In this document: positions 3,395 through 11,249 of the stretch, piece by piece | Numbering within the stretch: the first letter of the stretch is position 1 | Layout: every line of letters begins with the position of its first letter | From: Synechococcales cyanobacterium S06 | GTDB taxonomy: Bacteria; Cyanobacteriota; Cyanobacteriia; Cyanobacteriales; JAABRE01 | DNA: 34,086 nucleotides | NCBI GenBank assembly: GCA_011391125.1 | Contig: JAABRE010000051.1 | Location: forward strand, 1-34,086 | Direction of reading: 5' to 3' | Program-made: the position numbers and the translations under genes | The notes under the pieces: generated by a model | Told to the model about the DNA's origin: nothing | Databases searched by the model: none | Seen by the model: only the letters and a program-made list of their open reading frames with translations

Positions 3395-6163
3395 ATGCCT
3401 TTAAGTTGGAATGAAATTAAATCGCGCGCACTTATTTTTTCCCAAGAATGGCAACAAGAAACCTCAGAAAATGCCGAAGCCAAATCTTTTTGGGATAGTT
3501 TTTTTAATGTTTTTGGTATTTTTCGCCGACGAGTGGCAACTTTTGAAAAACCAGTAAAAAAAGGAGATAACAAAACTGGTTTCATTGATTTACTTTGGAA
3601 AGGAGTAATTTTAGTCGAACATAAATCGAAGGGAAAAAATTTAGATAAAGCTTTTCAACAGGCGATCGATTATTTCCCCGGATTAAAGGAACACGAGTTA
3701 CCTAAATATATTTTAGTTTCGGATTTTGCGCGGTTTAAACTCTACGATTTAGACACCGAAGAAACCACGGAATTTGAACTGAAAAATTTAGTTAATTATG
3801 TCCATTTATTCGGTTTTATGGCGGGATATGAAAAACGCACCTACAAAGATTCTGATCCCGTCAATATTCAGGCTGCTGAACTGATGGGCAAGCTTCACGA
3901 TCGCCTCGAAGAAGTTGGCTACACCGGTCACAATTTAGAGGTTTACCTCGTCAGGTTGTTATTTTGTTTATTTGCTGACGATACTGGGATTTTTGACAAG
4001 GGCATTTTCTGGGAATACCTAGATTTACACAGCAAGCCAGATGGTAGTGATTTAGCAATGCACCTTAGCTCAATTTTTCAGGTGTTAAATACACCCAAAA
4101 ATAAGCGTTTAAGCAATTTAGATGAGAATTTAGCGCAGTTTCCCTATGTTAACGGCAAATTATTCGAGGAAACTCTCGCTATTGCCCAATTTGACAGCAA
4201 AATGCGGTCTATGTTATTACAGGCCTGCGCTTTAGATTGGGGTAAAATTTCACCAGCGATTTTTGGCTCAATGTTTCAAGCGGTGATGAATCCCAACCAA
4301 AGGCGTAATTTTGGTGCCCATTATACATCTGAAAAGAACATTCAAAAAGTAATTAAACCCCTATTTTTAGACGATTTATATGTGGAATTTGAAAAAGCAA
4401 AGGGCGATCGAAATAAACTTGAACAATTGCATCTAAAAGTAGCTAATTTACAGTTTCTTGATCCTGCTTGTGGTTGTGGTAACTTCCTAATTATCACCTA
4501 TCGGGAATTACGAGATTTAGAAATCTTGATTTTATTAGAACTAAATAAAAATGGTCAATTAGTAACAGATATTAGCTCGATTATTAAGGTTGATGTGGAT
4601 CAATTTTTCGGGATAGAATGCGATGAATTTGCGGTGAGAATTGCGGAAGTTGCTATGTGGTTAATTGACCACCAAATGAACCTTAAAGTTAGTCAGCAAT
4701 TTGGCCAATATTTTGTCAGATTACCCCTGAAAAAAGCGGCTCAAATTATCCATGGAAATGCTTTACGGATTGATTGGGTAGATGCCCTCCTAACTCCCCC
4801 TAACCCCCCCTTAGTAAGAGGGGTTGGGAGGGTTAATTTCATATTCGGAAATCCGCCTTTTGTGGGTAAACAAATGCAAAATTTACAGCAGAAAAAAGAC
4901 ATGGAATTGGTATTTTCTGGGGTGAAAAATGCGGGAGTTTTAGATTATGTAACGGCCTGGTATATTAAAGCTGCTCAATTTATCCAAAATACTAATATTC
5001 GCTGTGCTTTTGTCAGTACAAATTCCATTTCTCAAGGGGAACAAGTGGGGATTTTATGGCAGGAATTATACACAAAATATCACGTTAAAATACATTTTGC
5101 CCATCGTACATTTAGCTGGTCAAATGAAGCAAAAGGTAACGCAGCTGTCCATTGTGTAATAATTGGTTTTGGGTTACAAAATATAGAAAATAAACGTCTT
5201 TTTGATTATATTGATATTAAAGGTGAAGCCACAGAAAGGAAAGTAACTAACATTAATTCCTATGTAACAGAAGGTAATGATTTAGTAATTTTAAAACGCA
5301 ATAAACCCCTTTCTAATGTACCTAATATTATTTTCGGGAGTATGCCAAATGATGGCGGCAATTTTCTTTTTACTGAAGCAGAAAAAGACGAGTTTTTAAA
5401 ACATGAACCAGAAGCAGAAAAATTTTTCAAAAAGTTTTTAAGTGCCAAGGAATTTCTTAATAATGAAAAACGTTACTGTCTCTGGTTAATTGATATTCAA
5501 CCCCACGAATTAAAAAAATTAAAAAATATTAGTCAAAGAGTGGAAAATGTTAAAAATTTACGCCTTGAAAGTAAACGAGAATCAACTCAAAAATTAGCTA
5601 ATTTTCCTACTCTTTTCGGAGAAAATAGACAACCGAATAGCGATTACATTATTTTTCCCCTTCTAACTTCTGAAAATAGAAAGTATATACCGATAGATTT
5701 ATTAGACAAAAACCAGATTGTTGGTAATAGCTGTAGTTGTATTCCGAATGCTACCCTTTATTTATTTGGTATTTTAACTTCCCAAATGCACATGACATGG
5801 GTTAAATATGTCTGTGGAAGATTAGAAAGTCGTTTTCGTTATTCCAATACAATTGTTTATAATAATTATCCCTTTCCAGAGAATATTACTGATAAACAAA
5901 AAGAAAAGGTAGAGAATTGCGCGCAAATTGTTCTCGATACAAGGAGCAAATATCCTGATAGTAATTTAGCGGAATTATATGACCCCTTAACTATGCCACC
6001 TGATTTAGTCAAGGTACATCGAAACCTTGACAAATCAGTAGATTTATGCTATAGATCGCAACCATTTGTTAACGAATTAAATCGCATTGAATATTTGTTT
6101 AATCTGTATGAAAGCTTAAATACACCATTACTTAAATCCGAGAAAAAACAGCGTCAAAAATAA
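3395..6163 (+). CDS. MmeI-like type IIL restriction-modification enzyme, copy 1
   Basis: This is a 922-residue single-chain restriction and N6-adenine methylation enzyme, close to MmeI in length and layout. An N-terminal nuclease signature D-X9-E-X-K is present (D65, E75, K77, in FIDLLWKGVILVEHKSK). A helical spacer covers about residues 160-300. The methyltransferase follows, with motif I FLDPACGCGNF (D356) and motif IV NPPF (N486-F489). A target-recognition region spans about 600-800, and a C-terminal helical domain ends in PLLKSEKKQRQK. A 48-bp palindromic repeat (4785-4832) is read in frame just before NPPF. The protein is clearly homologous along its length to the inverted gene at 31533, with most divergence in the recognition region. 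Such enzymes methylate one strand and cut about 20 bp away. The recognition sequence cannot be read from the gene here. Confidence 0.88.
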   Translation: MPLSWNEIKSRALIFSQEWQQETSENAEAKSFWDSFFNVFGIFRRRVATFEKPVKKGDNKTGFIDLLWKGVILVEHKSKGKNLDKAFQQAIDYFPGLKEHELPKYILVSDFARFKLYDLDTEETTEFELKNLVNYVHLFGFMAGYEKRTYKDSDPVNIQAAELMGKLHDRLEEVGYTGHNLEVYLVRLLFCLFADDTGIFDKGIFWEYLDLHSKPDGSDLAMHLSSIFQVLNTPKNKRLSNLDENLAQFPYVNGKLFEETLAIAQFDSKMRSMLLQACALDWGKISPAIFGSMFQAVMNPNQRRNFGAHYTSEKNIQKVIKPLFLDDLYVEFEKAKGDRNKLEQLHLKVANLQFLDPACGCGNFLIITYRELRDLEILILLELNKNGQLVTDISSIIKVDVDQFFGIECDEFAVRIAEVAMWLIDHQMNLKVSQQFGQYFVRLPLKKAAQIIHGNALRIDWVDALLTPPNPPLVRGVGRVNFIFGNPPFVGKQMQNLQQKKDMELVFSGVKNAGVLDYVTAWYIKAAQFIQNTNIRCAFVSTNSISQGEQVGILWQELYTKYHVKIHFAHRTFSWSNEAKGNAAVHCVIIGFGLQNIENKRLFDYIDIKGEATERKVTNINSYVTEGNDLVILKRNKPLSNVPNIIFGSMPNDGGNFLFTEAEKDEFLKHEPEAEKFFKKFLSAKEFLNNEKRYCLWLIDIQPHELKKLKNISQRVENVKNLRLESKRESTQKLANFPTLFGENRQPNSDYIIFPLLTSENRKYIPIDLLDKNQIVGNSCSCIPNATLYLFGILTSQMHMTWVKYVCGRLESRFRYSNTIVYNNYPFPENITDKQKEKVENCAQIVLDTRSKYPDSNLAELYDPLTMPPDLVKVHRNLDKSVDLCYRSQPFVNELNRIEYLFNLYESLNTPLLKSEKKQRQK
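4785..4832. repeat. Palindromic repeat inside the MmeI-like gene, copy 1
   Basis: CCCTCCTAAC (4785-4794) and GTTGGGAGGG (4823-4832) are near-perfect inverted arms around TAACCCCCC and GAGGGG segments. This C-rich hairpin type is normally intergenic in cyanobacteria. Here it is 48 bp long, a multiple of three, and encodes the Pro-rich stretch LLTPPNPPLVRGVGR just before the FGNPPF catalytic motif. Confidence 0.65.
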
Positions 6164-6205: not shown

Positions 6206-6610
6206 TTACAAATTTGTAGAAATAGCTTGTAGTGGACAAGTGGGAATACATTGTTCACAAACGACACAACGAGTTCGAGAAAAATGCAGTTTAAATGTTT
6301 CTGGATGTAAGGTTAATGCTTGTGTGGGACATACTCCTGTACATAAACCACAATCCACACAACTTTGATCATCAATTAATATTTCTCTACGATCTGAAGA
6401 TACTTTTATATTATGGGCTTTCATCCATTCTAAAGCTGCTTCTAATTCGTCTATATCTCCTGATAATTCTAATACCACTGTACCAACTTGATTCGGTGCA
6501 ATTTGCGCTCTAATTATATTAGCTGCAATGTTAAAATCTTTCGCTAATCGATAAGTTAAGGGCATTTGTACTACATTTTTGGGAAATATTAAAGTTACTC
6601 TTTTTTTCAT
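6206..6610 (-). CDS. NIL-domain protein with two [4Fe-4S] ferredoxin motifs
   Basis: This 134-residue protein starts at MKKRVTLIFPKNVVQMP; the frame extends further upstream, but that extension would overlap the txlA start region and has no family support. Residues 1-75 form an NIL domain, an ACT-like fold found at the end of methionine ABC transporter ATPases and in front of ferredoxins in cyanobacteria. Residues about 80-130 carry two cluster motifs, CVDCGLCTGVCP and CVVCEQCIPTCP, giving a bacterial 2x[4Fe-4S] ferredoxin. It is probably a soluble electron carrier; the partner is unknown. It is divergent from txlA, with 46 bp between start codons, and converges with the MmeI-like gene 42 bp away. 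Confidence 0.85.
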   Translation of the reverse strand: MKKRVTLIFPKNVVQMPLTYRLAKDFNIAANIIRAQIAPNQVGTVVLELSGDIDELEAALEWMKAHNIKVSSDRREILIDDQSCVDCGLCTGVCPTQALTLHPETFKLHFSRTRCVVCEQCIPTCPLQAISTNL

Positions 6611-6656
6611 ATAATTTAGTAAAATATAAGTTAATTTATTTACCATTTGAGGGAAA

Positions 6657-7214
6657 ATGACAGACAATCTTGCTCCTACTAACAAGTTAAAAAATGTGGT
6701 TCTTGCTTTGGTGGCCATTGCCCTTAGTTTAGCTATTTTTTTGGGATTACAAACTAAATCTGATTCGGCTACTTTAGATAATCAAGCGACCAATTCTACC
6801 CCTTTAGAAGTCGCAATAACTAACAATAAAGCCACTTTAATTGAATTTTATGCTAATTGGTGTACCAGTTGCCAAGCTATGGCTAAAGATTTAAGTGACT
6901 TAAAACAAAAATACGGCCAGAATGTCAATTTTGTCATGTTAAATGTCGATAACAATAAATGGTTACCCGAAATTTTGCGCTATCGTGTTGATGGTATCCC
7001 GCATTTTGTTTTTCTAAATCAGCTTGGGGAGGCGATCGCCGAAACTATTGGCGAACAGCCCAAGAGTGTTTTGACCGCCGATTTAGAAGCCTTAATAGCC
7101 AATCAAACTTTGCCTTACACCTATTCTACAGGTCAAGTTTCCGCTTTTACTGCTCCCGTGAGTAGTCCTAGTGATCCTCGTAGCCATGGAAGTCAAGTAA
7201 AAAGTAATCCCTAA
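6657..7214 (+). CDS. txlA: Membrane-anchored thioredoxin-like protein TxlA (HCF164-like)
   Basis: This 185-residue protein has one N-terminal membrane anchor (residues about 12-31) and then a thioredoxin fold facing the lumen or periplasm. The active site is WCTSC (C69, C72) in FYANWCTSCQAMAKDL. The cis-Pro loop reads VDGIPHFVFLN, and GEAIAETIGEQP follows. The plant homologue HCF164 takes electrons across the thylakoid membrane from CcdA and is needed for cytochrome b6f assembly. A matching role here is inferred from the family. The C-terminal tail after residue 160 is Ser/Pro-rich and probably disordered. The ATG at 6657 follows GAGGGA. Confidence 0.87.
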   Translation: MTDNLAPTNKLKNVVLALVAIALSLAIFLGLQTKSDSATLDNQATNSTPLEVAITNNKATLIEFYANWCTSCQAMAKDLSDLKQKYGQNVNFVMLNVDNNKWLPEILRYRVDGIPHFVFLNQLGEAIAETIGEQPKSVLTADLEALIANQTLPYTYSTGQVSAFTAPVSSPSDPRSHGSQVKSNP

Positions 7215-7231
7215 TAATTATCAATTGTTAC

Positions 7232-8113
7232 TTAACTTTTCATAATTTTTAACACTAAATCTGAGATTTCACTGGGGTTTTTAGCTAGGGGAATTTTGGC
7301 TTGTTTAAAAGTATCTAAAAGTAGGTGATAACGACTATCACTAGGTACAGAATAGGATAATTGATTGGCAATAATTGTCGCAGCATCTTTAAAGTTTTTT
7401 TCTAAAGGTGCTTGCAAACCAAGGAAATAAGCAATTACTGGTTTAGAAAGAGAATTAGTAATATATTCCGCCAAATTTTCTTCATAAATTACATTTAAAG
7501 GAGCTGTCATGACAATTATTTTCGTGTTTTCATCTTCTTGTAAATATTGTAGCCAATATTGCCAAGATGAACCAGTAATATCATCTTTACCCAAACTAAC
7601 AACAATTGATTCTCCTAATTCAGCTTTTTTAAGAGCTAAACTAATCTCATAACTAAGATAATCTGTCGTGCTAATGATACCCACATTTCCGGGAGCATAA
7701 AATTCTTGATCTAATATCCCTAAACATAATTTTTCTGGAATAATTATCCCACTACTTCCAGGTCCAATAATTACGGTATTTGTTGCCGCAGCTTTTTGCT
7801 TTAAACGCACCATATCTAAGGGAGGAATTTGAGGCGTAATAATTATTATTTGTTTAATTCCAGAAGCGATCGCCTCTAACCCTGCATCTAATACTTGATA
7901 AGGTGGTACAAATATTAAACTGGTGTCTATTTTTCCAATTTTTAAAACAACATCTTCAACTAAGTCGAAGATAGGAATACCTGCCACCGCCGCAATTTCC
8001 TCTCCAGGGGCAATACCAGCTACTAAATTAGTGCCAGTTTTTTTCATTTTTTCTGCATAATATAAAGCTAAGGGATTAGTAATACCTTGTATGATTACCG
8101 TGGATTCTTTCAT
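7232..8113 (-). CDS. Succinyl-CoA synthetase alpha-like protein lacking the active-site His
   Basis: The 293 residues match the alpha subunit (SucD) in length and along its two Rossmann-like domains: GIKQIIIITPQIPPLDM, IIGPGSSGIIIPE and the GNVGIIS segment. The functional residues have changed. The segment equivalent to E. coli KRMGHAGAI, which holds phosphohistidine 246, reads EKNFKDAATI here, with Asp243 at the His position. The GEIGG loop with the catalytic Glu reads TAPLN. The CoA-binding GFTGSQGTFH reads GITNPLALYY, and GPNCPG reads GPGSSG. Normal succinyl-CoA synthetase chemistry is therefore unlikely by the known mechanism. It is the second gene of a two-gene unit, 10 bp after the beta-like gene. 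Homology is certain; the function is not, and I withhold the symbol sucD. Confidence 0.8.
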   Translation of the reverse strand: MKESTVIIQGITNPLALYYAEKMKKTGTNLVAGIAPGEEIAAVAGIPIFDLVEDVVLKIGKIDTSLIFVPPYQVLDAGLEAIASGIKQIIIITPQIPPLDMVRLKQKAAATNTVIIGPGSSGIIIPEKLCLGILDQEFYAPGNVGIISTTDYLSYEISLALKKAELGESIVVSLGKDDITGSSWQYWLQYLQEDENTKIIVMTAPLNVIYEENLAEYITNSLSKPVIAYFLGLQAPLEKNFKDAATIIANQLSYSVPSDSRYHLLLDTFKQAKIPLAKNPSEISDLVLKIMKS

Positions 8114-8123
8114 TGTTTTCCTC

Positions 8124-9389
8124 TTAATTCGCTAAGGTAATAGTTTCATTAATTGCATTTTCTAACTGCTCTGTCCAATAAAAAGGTAACTGATCAAGAA
8201 GAGCTTTAGTTGCCTCAGTTTTTTCTCCGACTAAACGGAGAACAATTTGCAATTCTGTATCCTGTTTTACGGTAATAGAGCTTGATTTGCTATTGGTTTT
8301 TCGGCGATTACGAGAAGCAGCACCGGTGGGTCTTTCTACCCTATCTGTTCCTTTTTCAATCGCTATTTGTTGAGCCATTAGTTGAAAATAATTAGCCAGT
8401 TTTTCCGCCATCAGCTCAATAGTTTTGGCATCAGTTATTAAATTTATTAAAATTACTTCAATACCCGGCATTTCCTTAAGATAATTGAGCGCTAATTCTA
8501 GTTCATTTATCGAATCAGTATTAGGTAAAGCTCTTCCTTGATATTCTTGCCAAATTATTGAACAACCAGCAATTTTTCCCTTAGCTTGACTAATTAAATC
8601 CCAGTTAATTAAGGCCAAGTTTAAATTATTAGAAATTAGAGCAATATTACCCTTTTGATTGAAACTATCGAGCCAATTTATCTTTTTTCCCAGCTCATTA
8701 ATGACGGTGTCCTCTGTCGTTTTGACCTTATCCAAAGCAATTAAAGACAAAATATCACCGTGTCGAGGAAGTGCATGATTATTAATAGAAATCTTGCCAT
8801 CTAAAGCCATTAATTCTCCCTGAGAATTTACTCCTAAAGGATTAATTTCAATTAAATCTAAATCCTTTCTCAGAAAAAGATAATACATCTTTTCCACAAT
8901 TTCACTTACGGATTGAATCAGCTTACCTTTTAGCCCCATTTTTGTTACTAATCGACGAGCATAAAAAGGTGAAAATTCATCTTCTATCACCACTTTTTGT
9001 AAATTTGCTAATAGTTTTTCGACATCAATTCCACCGGTAATTGAACCTAATAATACTGGTTTTTGTAACTGATAATCTAACACAATAGCGAGAAAAAATT
9101 CCTCCACTGGGTTATAACGAGCTTCCGCTAAAATGACCTCTGGATATTGGTTTAAAATCGGCAAATTAAAAATAGTTCTCGCAGCGGCGATCGCATCAAT
9201 GGTGTTTTCGACAAATCGAATTCCTCCTGCTCTTCCCCTTCCGCCCACGCTAACTTGAGATTTTAATACAACAGGATAAGGAATTTGTAAACCTTTCAAT
9301 TCTCGCGGGTCGTGAATCGGTTGTGAAGGTAATACAGGAATACCGACTTGATTAAATAATTTTTTAGCTTGATATTCTAATAAGTCCAT
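8124..9389 (-). CDS. Succinyl-CoA synthetase beta-like protein, altered C-terminal half
   Basis: This 421-residue protein starts at MDLLEYQAKKLFNQVG, matching the family N-terminus; an upstream ATG at 9452 would add 21 unsupported residues. The ATP-grasp half is well kept: VVLKSQVSVGGRGRAGG, the ITGGIDVEKL segment, and the metal-binding pair LIEINPL and LDGK. The C-terminal half keeps the fold outline but has lost the usual motifs. The NGAGLAMGTMD segment reads SNNLNLALINWD, the FLDVGGGA glycines are gone, and NIFGGI reads INLITDA. A basic, Ser-rich insert (VERPTGAASRNRRKTNSKSS, about residues 345-375) precedes the last 45 residues. Together with the alpha-like gene, with which it is probably cotranscribed, this suggests a repurposed ATP-grasp pair. 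Confidence 0.8.
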   Translation of the reverse strand: MDLLEYQAKKLFNQVGIPVLPSQPIHDPRELKGLQIPYPVVLKSQVSVGGRGRAGGIRFVENTIDAIAAARTIFNLPILNQYPEVILAEARYNPVEEFFLAIVLDYQLQKPVLLGSITGGIDVEKLLANLQKVVIEDEFSPFYARRLVTKMGLKGKLIQSVSEIVEKMYYLFLRKDLDLIEINPLGVNSQGELMALDGKISINNHALPRHGDILSLIALDKVKTTEDTVINELGKKINWLDSFNQKGNIALISNNLNLALINWDLISQAKGKIAGCSIIWQEYQGRALPNTDSINELELALNYLKEMPGIEVILINLITDAKTIELMAEKLANYFQLMAQQIAIEKGTDRVERPTGAASRNRRKTNSKSSSITVKQDTELQIVLRLVGEKTEATKALLDQLPFYWTEQLENAINETITLAN

Positions 9390-9656
9390 CTTTTTTGTAA
9401 TTGCAAAATTTTGCTCGTAATTAATTATTTTTTTTAAAACAATAAAAGACATTATAGCTGATAGCGGTTATGTCTTTTAATTTTCTTATTTGGTTTGAAG
9501 AGAACAGACAAAAGTACAAAGATGGTAAGAAAAGCTCATTATGAGAGTAAAATAAAGTATTAGGAGGCTATTCATTTAATAATTTTTGCTACTAAAATAA
9601 CTTTTGATTGCTACAATAATTGTTAATGATCAGTTAAATTATGTTTATTATTAGAG

Positions 9657-11249
9657 ATGAAAACTACTCAAGAATCATTGAATTTAAAAGAATTGGAAGT
9701 CTTTTTAACTAAAAGATTAGCTGAGGAATATTTGGATATTACTTCCTTGATTGTTAATTGTATTAAGGAGAAAGATAAGATCACAATTCTTTTACAACAT
9801 TCACCTCCAGTTAGTTCTTTTTTTGAGCAAATATTTTCCCTAGTTAAAAAGTTATTAAAACAGAAATCCTTTGGCAAAAATCAGCAGTTTAAGCTGTGTT
9901 TAGCTATTTATGGTGAATCACCTTATGTGGTGGATAATTTTACTGTTTTATCTCGCCATAAAACCAAGCAAAAAAAATCTAAAAAAGGTAAAAAATTTAA
10001 CTCAAAAAATACTTTTTTACTCCTACTTTTTGGCAGTAGTTTGTTCACTTTAACTTTAATTTATCTGAGTATTCAACCCTGTGTCATTGGCAAGTGTGAA
10101 AATATAACCAATGCCCAAGAATTAGCGAGGGAATCCCAAGAATTAATTAAGGAAGAAGATTTATTAAAAGCTGAACTTAAATTAAAAGCATCTTTAGAAA
10201 ATTTACAATCTATTCCTTGGTTTTCTTCCTCATATTCAGAAGCAAAAAAATTAACTAATGATTATGAAAAGAAACTGCACAATTTACAAGAATTTTTAGA
10301 AGATATTAAAATCGCAAATCAAACCTTAATTGAGTTTCAACAACTTAAAACAACGGCAGAATGGGAACAATATCTACAAAAGTTAGCTCAAGTAATTAAT
10401 AATTTAAGAAAAGTCTCTAATTCCAGTGAATTTTATGCCATATCCCAAGAAACTTTAATAATATATGAGCAAAAATTAACCGAATTAACTAATCTTTATA
10501 ATCTGGAAAAAAGCGCCGAAAATAATGTTTTAACAGCAGTGGAAATGGCTCAAATTTCAGTGCTACGGCAACAGCAAGCTTACTCCCTCAAAGAATGGCA
10601 ATTAGTCAATCTAACTTGGTCATTAGTAACAAATAGATTAAAAGCGATTACACCCGAAAATATTGCCTATCAACAAACCCAACAATTATTAACAGAATAT
10701 CAACCGATAATCAAAGAAGCACAAGATAAATTAAAACAGGAAGAAACCGCCTATAAAACCTCTCAATATGCCATTAATACGGCTCTAAAAGCGAGAAAAT
10801 CAGAACAGGAACAACAATATACCTTAGCAATTGAACATTGGAAAAATGCCCTGAATATTCTCTCAAAAATAAACCCAAATACCTCTCAATTTGAACAATC
10901 ACAAACTTTAAGCAAAGATTATCAAACATTTTTAACTCAAGCAGAACAACAATTAAAATTCACTCAAATTAGACAAAAAGCGAATCAAGATTTAGATAAA
11001 ATTTGCTTAAATCAAGAAAAAATTTGTACCTATACATTAGGAAAAGATAACCTAATTAAAGTATATTTAAACCAGGAATATTTACAAAAAGTTTTAAGAA
11101 TCGCCATCTCAAATCAAGTACAAGGAGATTTAATGCAACATATCAGCAGCGTTCAAAAAGCCCTAGAAGTTGTAAGTAACAAACATCAATTGCCCCTAGA
11201 GGTATATCATAGCGATGGAGGATTACTTTTTAGCTACTCTCCTAATTGA
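9657..11249 (+). CDS. Uncharacterised single-pass membrane protein with a long helical domain
   Basis: I do not recognise a named family for this 530-residue protein. Residues 1-100 form a small cytoplasmic domain (LNLKELEVFLTKRLAEEYL, then KLCLAIYGESPYVV). A Lys-rich stretch (102-117) precedes one membrane helix at about 119-140, so by the positive-inside rule the long C-terminal part is likely lumenal or periplasmic. Residues about 150-440 are strongly helical and Gln/Glu/Lys-rich, resembling TPR or coiled-coil repeats (EQQYTLAIEHWKNALNIL is TPR-like). A short Cys-containing domain (DKICLNQEKICTYT) and a globular end follow. It is divergent from the suc-like pair, with a 268-bp gap, and is followed by the Tab2-like gene. 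A scaffold or envelope role is a guess from the layout only. Confidence 0.7.
   Translation: MKTTQESLNLKELEVFLTKRLAEEYLDITSLIVNCIKEKDKITILLQHSPPVSSFFEQIFSLVKKLLKQKSFGKNQQFKLCLAIYGESPYVVDNFTVLSRHKTKQKKSKKGKKFNSKNTFLLLLFGSSLFTLTLIYLSIQPCVIGKCENITNAQELARESQELIKEEDLLKAELKLKASLENLQSIPWFSSSYSEAKKLTNDYEKKLHNLQEFLEDIKIANQTLIEFQQLKTTAEWEQYLQKLAQVINNLRKVSNSSEFYAISQETLIIYEQKLTELTNLYNLEKSAENNVLTAVEMAQISVLRQQQAYSLKEWQLVNLTWSLVTNRLKAITPENIAYQQTQQLLTEYQPIIKEAQDKLKQEETAYKTSQYAINTALKARKSEQEQQYTLAIEHWKNALNILSKINPNTSQFEQSQTLSKDYQTFLTQAEQQLKFTQIRQKANQDLDKICLNQEKICTYTLGKDNLIKVYLNQEYLQKVLRIAISNQVQGDLMQHISSVQKALEVVSNKHQLPLEVYHSDGGLLFSYSPN

Follow-up and report, generated by a model that had tools for sequence, protein, structure and literature searches.

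A cyanobacterial gene pair of succinyl-CoA synthetase descent that lacks the phosphohistidine and probably serves a role other than CoA ligation

In succinyl-CoA synthetase (SCS), His246 of the alpha subunit is phosphorylated and stabilised by Glu208-alpha and Glu197-beta (PMC10342173). The same paper cites an E. coli mutant in which the phosphohistidine was replaced (Majumdar 1991, as cited there). In cyanobacteria, a review credits the activity in Synechocystis to SucC and SucD, with a "probably" (PMC7133116), and succinyl-CoA itself has been measured in Synechocystis (PMC9855186). In Synechococcus 7002, a sucCD deletion left succinate and malate at about 60% of their wild-type levels, a result that the authors read as support for SCS activity; the mutant also could not be grown with standard 2% CO2 sparging (PMC5160925). 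Metabolic reviews of Synechocystis and Synechococcus 7002 include SCS on the strength of these genes. Our search of the literature, confined to open-access papers, found no remark on a missing histidine.

We analysed a SucC/SucD-like gene pair of Synechococcales cyanobacterium S06 in a window (the whole stretch of DNA studied) of 34,086 nucleotides. The beta open reading frame spans 8124-9452, and its true start is put at 9389 (MDLLEYQAK), the start of nearly all homologues. The features at the locus are:

7232..8113, minus strand: alpha (SucD-like) gene, 293 aa; fold of SCS-alpha, with Asp243 in the position of the phosphohistidine and neither a Glu208 equivalent nor a CoA-loop signature
7382..7393, minus strand: codons of alpha residues 241-244 (FKDA), which correspond to the phosphohistidine loop G-H-A; position derived by counting from the ORF start (8113)
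8114..8123, minus strand: gap of 10 bp between the beta stop and the alpha start; the ribosome-binding site AGAGGAAA lies in the gap and just upstream
8124..9389, minus strand: beta (SucC-like) gene; the ATP-grasp domain at the N-terminus is intact, and the ligase domain at the C-terminus lacks the canonical glycine motifs
9390..9656, no strand: intergenic stretch that separates beta from the divergent neighbour; sigma-70-like promoter matches show no excess over chance
9657..11249, plus strand: divergent neighbour, encoding a protein with a putative membrane anchor, helical repeats and two pairs of conserved cysteines (C142, C147, C450 and C457)

Both frames are open and undisrupted, as an earlier note made from the letters of the window had stated. 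The ribosome-binding site before alpha is graded good, and the co-directional beta-alpha pair probably forms one operon.

Judged by profile scores, the pair is homologous to SucC and SucD beyond chance. Alpha matches TIGR01019 with an E-value of 1e-61 (208.7 bits) and beta matches TIGR01016 with an E-value of 1e-50 (172.4 bits); these profile matches cover most of the length of SucC and SucD, and matches of both subunits to PDB sequences are exclusively to SCS and its superfamily. Both scores fall below the curated cut-offs, which stand at 353 bits for alpha and 376 bits for beta. In the predicted models, the SCS fold is found in both subunits. The alpha model (pLDDT 90) shows an SCS alpha subunit with nothing missing, which Foldseek matches to 1oi7 with an E-value of 1.6e-26 and a TM of 0.85-0.92; in blocks around the former phosphohistidine loop (residues 231-260), pLDDT goes down to 56-62. 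The beta model matches 3ufx (E 4.9e-31); its ATP-grasp domain is modelled with confidence and its C-terminal half less well. The domain arrangement is uncertain (pTM 0.56), and an insert of about 20-30 aa near residues 345-378 is of low confidence.

Active-site residues were read from an alignment to the actual E. coli SucD and SucC (NC_000913; E. coli numbers include the initiator Met) and 80 cyanobacterial homologues. SucD His247 (mature His246) aligns with Asp243 of the window protein and the GEIGG of the Glu208 loop with TAPLN, which confirms two substitutions claimed in the earlier note. The loss of the CoA-binding glycine-rich loop, claimed there as well, stands for the signature (GxTGxxG, TPGKGG), since QGFTGSQG has become QGITNPLA and TPGKGG has become APGEEI, but not for Gln9-Gly10, which are retained. 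With CoA-contact residues assigned by motif position and not from coordinates, the CoA loop of the window ranks among the most altered found. A phosphohistidine shifted elsewhere was also considered and rejected: the single histidine of alpha (263) is distant from the loop, and when all columns of the 43-member window clade were scanned for a substitute, none reached 30% His. A histidine one position earlier in Picosynechococcus occurs in five of six species, with Tyr in PCC 7117, and is thus not conserved. Right behind the former phosphohistidine loop, alpha residues 250-253 form an NQLS motif that canonical SucD does not have; within the His-less clade, to which it is specific, each of its residues is conserved at about 47-84%.

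The beta subunit retains every ATP-grasp residue checked, namely K46, R54, E99, E107, E197, N199 and D213 in E. coli numbering (K43, R51, E89, E97, E181, N183 and D197 in the window protein), and aligned to E. coli SucC and the cyanobacterial homologues it is without the C-terminal glycine motifs GGGAT and IFGGI, just as first described. Among the 29 aligned betas of the window clade, the first six of these residues are invariant and D213 is present in 28. The presence of Glu197-beta together with the absence of His246-alpha and Glu208-alpha indicates that, of the two sites, the one for the nucleotide (site II) is preserved and the one for ligation (site I) is lost, and on its residues beta is likely to have retained nucleotide binding. 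Most betas of f6, a family of Nostocaceae type, have Asn for the Mg ligand D213; turnover may thus not be required there, which favours binding over turnover in that family. ATP-grasp residues are altered too at f6 loci such as L037 and L119 (D213 to Asn, GGRG to ER or DR), which suggests a second, separate sort of repurposing.

With the phosphohistidine, Glu208 and the CoA-loop signature missing and the family cut-offs unreached, the pair is an SCS by origin and not by membership, and by its residues it is very probably not a succinyl-CoA synthetase. A second, canonical sucCD, for which the earlier note had suggested looking, was ruled out by searches of the same genome (99.98% complete): no canonical sucC or sucD was found elsewhere in it, nor any other Ligase_CoA match or other SucC above the ATP-grasp_2 cut-off. 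The E1 of 2-oxoglutarate dehydrogenase was not found in this genome, nor were methylmalonyl-CoA mutase, MetA or any DapD above the cut-off, so that none of the usual suppliers and users of succinyl-CoA that we sought was found. If the pair is not an SCS, another source must exist for the succinyl-CoA present in Synechocystis.

The losses had been taken as peculiar to this genome, and they prove instead to be phylum-wide. SucD above the 353-bit cut-off occurs in 24 of 291 genomes of the phylum, all outside Cyanobacteriia; the top score inside Cyanobacteriia is 322 bits, and the window scores 208 bits. Across 82 aligned cyanobacterial alphas (one per genome), CoA-loop Gly18 is missing from 80 and Lys43 from 78. 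The phosphohistidine is present in 24 genomes (13 families) and absent from 58 (21 families), one family (f43) having both states. Alpha Glu209 is found in 22 of the 24 His-plus genomes (92%) versus 4 of the 58 His-minus genomes (7%), and beta K46, R54, E99, E107 and E197 are at 100% in both groups. Synechocystis PCC 6714 and PCC 7338 and Picosynechococcus PCC 7117 and PCC 7003 carry the same losses, all with Asp at the His position; they are near relatives of the laboratory models PCC 6803 and PCC 7002, whose own sequences lay outside the searched set. Dolichospermum DET69 has Gln at this position, the highly diverged Cyanobacterium aponinum PCC 10605 has Asn, and Euhalothece natronophila has no pair. 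Across the aligned sequences, motif loss is a graded trait of the whole phylum, since almost all Cyanobacteriia have an altered CoA loop and loss of the His has recurred. In family f9 (L069-L074, L071 being C. aponinum PCC 10605), all active-site motifs of alpha are unrecognisable and dN/dS between close species is low (0.02-0.27); no beta gene was found next to alpha in this family, and in the genomes checked it sits elsewhere.

A concatenated tree, from which the columns around the His were left out, places the His-keeping sequences at the base, with His in the outgroup and the early branches. The His was lost independently at least three times on starred (supported) branches and four times on the best tree. 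One loss is the 43-row clade that holds the window, where 30 sequences have Asp, 11 Asn, 1 Glu and 1 Pro; as far as these residues tell, Asp is specific to this clade and no single residue explains the family. Another, separate loss lies in f6 (mostly Gln), whose sister f3 retains His with 100% support, and a third lies in at least one further place on the tree. Family f9 is long-branched in a quick tree, and its placement is unsure. A statistical proof of linked loss of His and Glu208 was dropped: the raw counts (22/2/4/54) are strong but come down to only three independent pairs after correction for phylogeny, which leaves no power.

Selection was measured on His-minus relatives, the window itself being without a close relative to pair. 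Between close His-minus pairs, dN/dS is 0.03-0.16 for the N-half of alpha, 0.02-0.38 for its C-half (top values at low dS), 0.01-0.15 for the ATP-grasp half of beta and 0.10-0.47 for the C-half of beta; the corresponding ranges for His-plus pairs are 0.04-0.12, 0.06-0.17, 0.04-0.09 and 0.01-0.24. The ATP-grasp domain is the most constrained part of the pair. In the N-half of alpha and the ATP-grasp half of beta, His-minus values resemble those of His-plus pairs, and such low values show that the genes are not in decay. A function is indicated by the occurrence of intact pairs throughout the order, by the purifying selection and by the full conservation of the ATP-grasp core. The earlier note had proposed a new ATP-dependent role in place of decay; this evidence bears out the absence of decay, and the ATP-dependent role, not supported in the form given there, is a possibility that the residues of the site suggest.

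Altogether, we propose that the pair is an alpha-beta complex derived from SCS and retained with its nucleotide site, without the phosphohistidine relay and with a non-CoA job, a reading to which we assign a probability of about 0.6. The pair would be a cyanobacterial descendant of SCS from which the second half of the reaction has been removed. The sequences show that alpha keeps the whole SCS-alpha fold and that beta keeps the ATP-grasp site II with its Mg ligands and Glu197-beta, whereas what once carried phosphate to the CoA-ligase site is gone, namely His246-alpha, Glu208-alpha, the beta GGGA helix start and the CoA loop. The two subunits would still associate as a complex with Mg-nucleotide bound in beta, and with neither a phosphohistidine shuttle nor a CoA pocket no succinyl-CoA would be made. 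Its role would most likely be that of a nucleotide-responsive complex, or else ATP-grasp chemistry performed directly on a carboxylate that is captured by something other than CoA. Between these, a sensor or scaffold role, as an ATP/ADP-sensing or scaffolding pseudoenzyme, is our tentative choice, at a little under even odds and slightly likelier than a direct ATP-grasp ligase.

As a direct ATP-grasp ligase or kinase, which we hold to be rather unlikely, beta would move the gamma-phosphate to a carboxylate, either of a small acid or of alpha Asp243, and the acyl phosphate would be taken by a non-CoA nucleophile. ATP-grasp enzymes normally phosphorylate carboxylates, and the window clade keeps all the ATP-grasp catalytic residues, including E197, N199 and D213; Asp has also replaced His in 30 of the 43 rows of this one clade, which spans many families. 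However, Asn takes the place of Asp in 11 of the 43, and by conservation column 243 is no higher than 92nd of 292, which argues that it is not an essential acceptor throughout, and the Nostocaceae-type members have Gln at the Asp243 position and mostly Asn at D213. Asp243 as a strictly conserved new phospho-acceptor was rejected on the residue counts of the clade.

It is improbable that the pair is an unusual but true succinyl-CoA or other acyl-CoA synthetase working without the phosphohistidine, for example with Asp243 as the carrier and a remodelled CoA pocket. The retained fold and ATP site are consistent with such an enzyme, as is the reduced succinate and malate of the 7002 deletion (PMC5160925). 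This drop is the main evidence for the SCS view and could reflect indirect effects; the growth defect of the same deletion is hard to explain by the loss of a dead-end SCS. Against such an enzyme, the His is not the only loss: Glu208, the GGGA helix of beta and both Gly and Lys of the CoA loop have disappeared with it, and the genome is without 2-oxoglutarate dehydrogenase E1, methylmalonyl-CoA mutase, MetA and above-cut-off DapD among the genes found. The E. coli mutant with a replaced phosphohistidine reportedly lost activity.

Slow decay, by which the genes would be dying remnants of a use lost once cyanobacteria dropped 2-oxoglutarate dehydrogenase, is the least credible account, because the graded motif loss, the outright absence of the pair from Euhalothece-type genomes and a few others, and the disrupted copies in G293 and G304, both of them incomplete drafts, are outweighed by a low dN/dS among His-minus pairs (about 0.01-0.16 for the N-half of alpha and the ATP-grasp half of beta), an ATP-grasp core nearly invariant over dozens of families, the presence of beta in 137 of the 148 genomes of the order and of alpha in 39 of 40 relatives (two of them weak matches to a longer, different protein), and the growth phenotype of the 7002 deletion.

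The divergent gene at 9657-11249, whose product has weak MIT/TPR matches, also lies next to beta in 23 further genomes, which belong to 11 families besides that of the window (12 in all), and a functional link to the pair is no more than a lead. Co-occurrence of this neighbour with the pair was considered and set aside: the neighbour is also found in family f26, where no pair was found, and is weakly matched in some pair-bearing genomes. On the other side of the pair, the window encodes a restriction-modification protein of MmeI type that is complete, all five MmeI domains being present (3395-6163, plus strand), a NIL-plus-4Fe-4S ferredoxin-like gene (6206-6718, minus strand) and a thioredoxin-domain gene with an N-terminal hydrophobic segment (6657-7214, plus strand), which is divergent from the ferredoxin-like gene and overlaps its start.

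If the proposed reading of a non-CoA complex is true, the TCA cycle as drawn for Synechocystis and Synechococcus 7002 contains a SucCD step that these proteins do not catalyse. If the pair cannot do the SCS reaction, the source of succinyl-CoA in cyanobacteria is open and models need correcting, and a conserved complex with a reported high-CO2 growth defect is left without a known function. We consider it conceivable, though not quite an even chance, that cyanobacteria made SCS a phylum-wide nucleotide-responsive complex (or a CoA-free ATP-grasp ligase) important for growth at high CO2.

Compared with known systems, the pair has in common with ADP-forming succinyl-CoA synthetase (SucC/SucD, EC 6.2.1.5) the sucC-sucD order, full-length homology, both folds and a complete beta ATP-grasp site. 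It differs in that the phosphohistidine, Glu208-alpha and the beta GGGA motif are missing, the CoA loop is altered and the scores lie far under the curated cut-offs. Citryl-CoA synthetase and ATP-citrate lyase, of the same superfamily and picked up by both sequence and structure searches, are less similar to the pair than SCS is and, unlike it, retain the phosphohistidine relay. FdrA and the NDP-forming acetyl-CoA synthetases have CoA-binding and ligase domains in common with SucD, but their profiles match only weakly, at E-values of 2e-6 and 4e-13, compared with 1e-61 for SucD. The proteins filed as SucC/SucD in Synechocystis (sll1023/sll1557) and in Synechococcus 7002 (A0890/A0891) belong to the same family as the window pair; alpha and beta lie apart in most of the Synechocystis genomes that were examined, whereas in the window they lie together as a probable operon.
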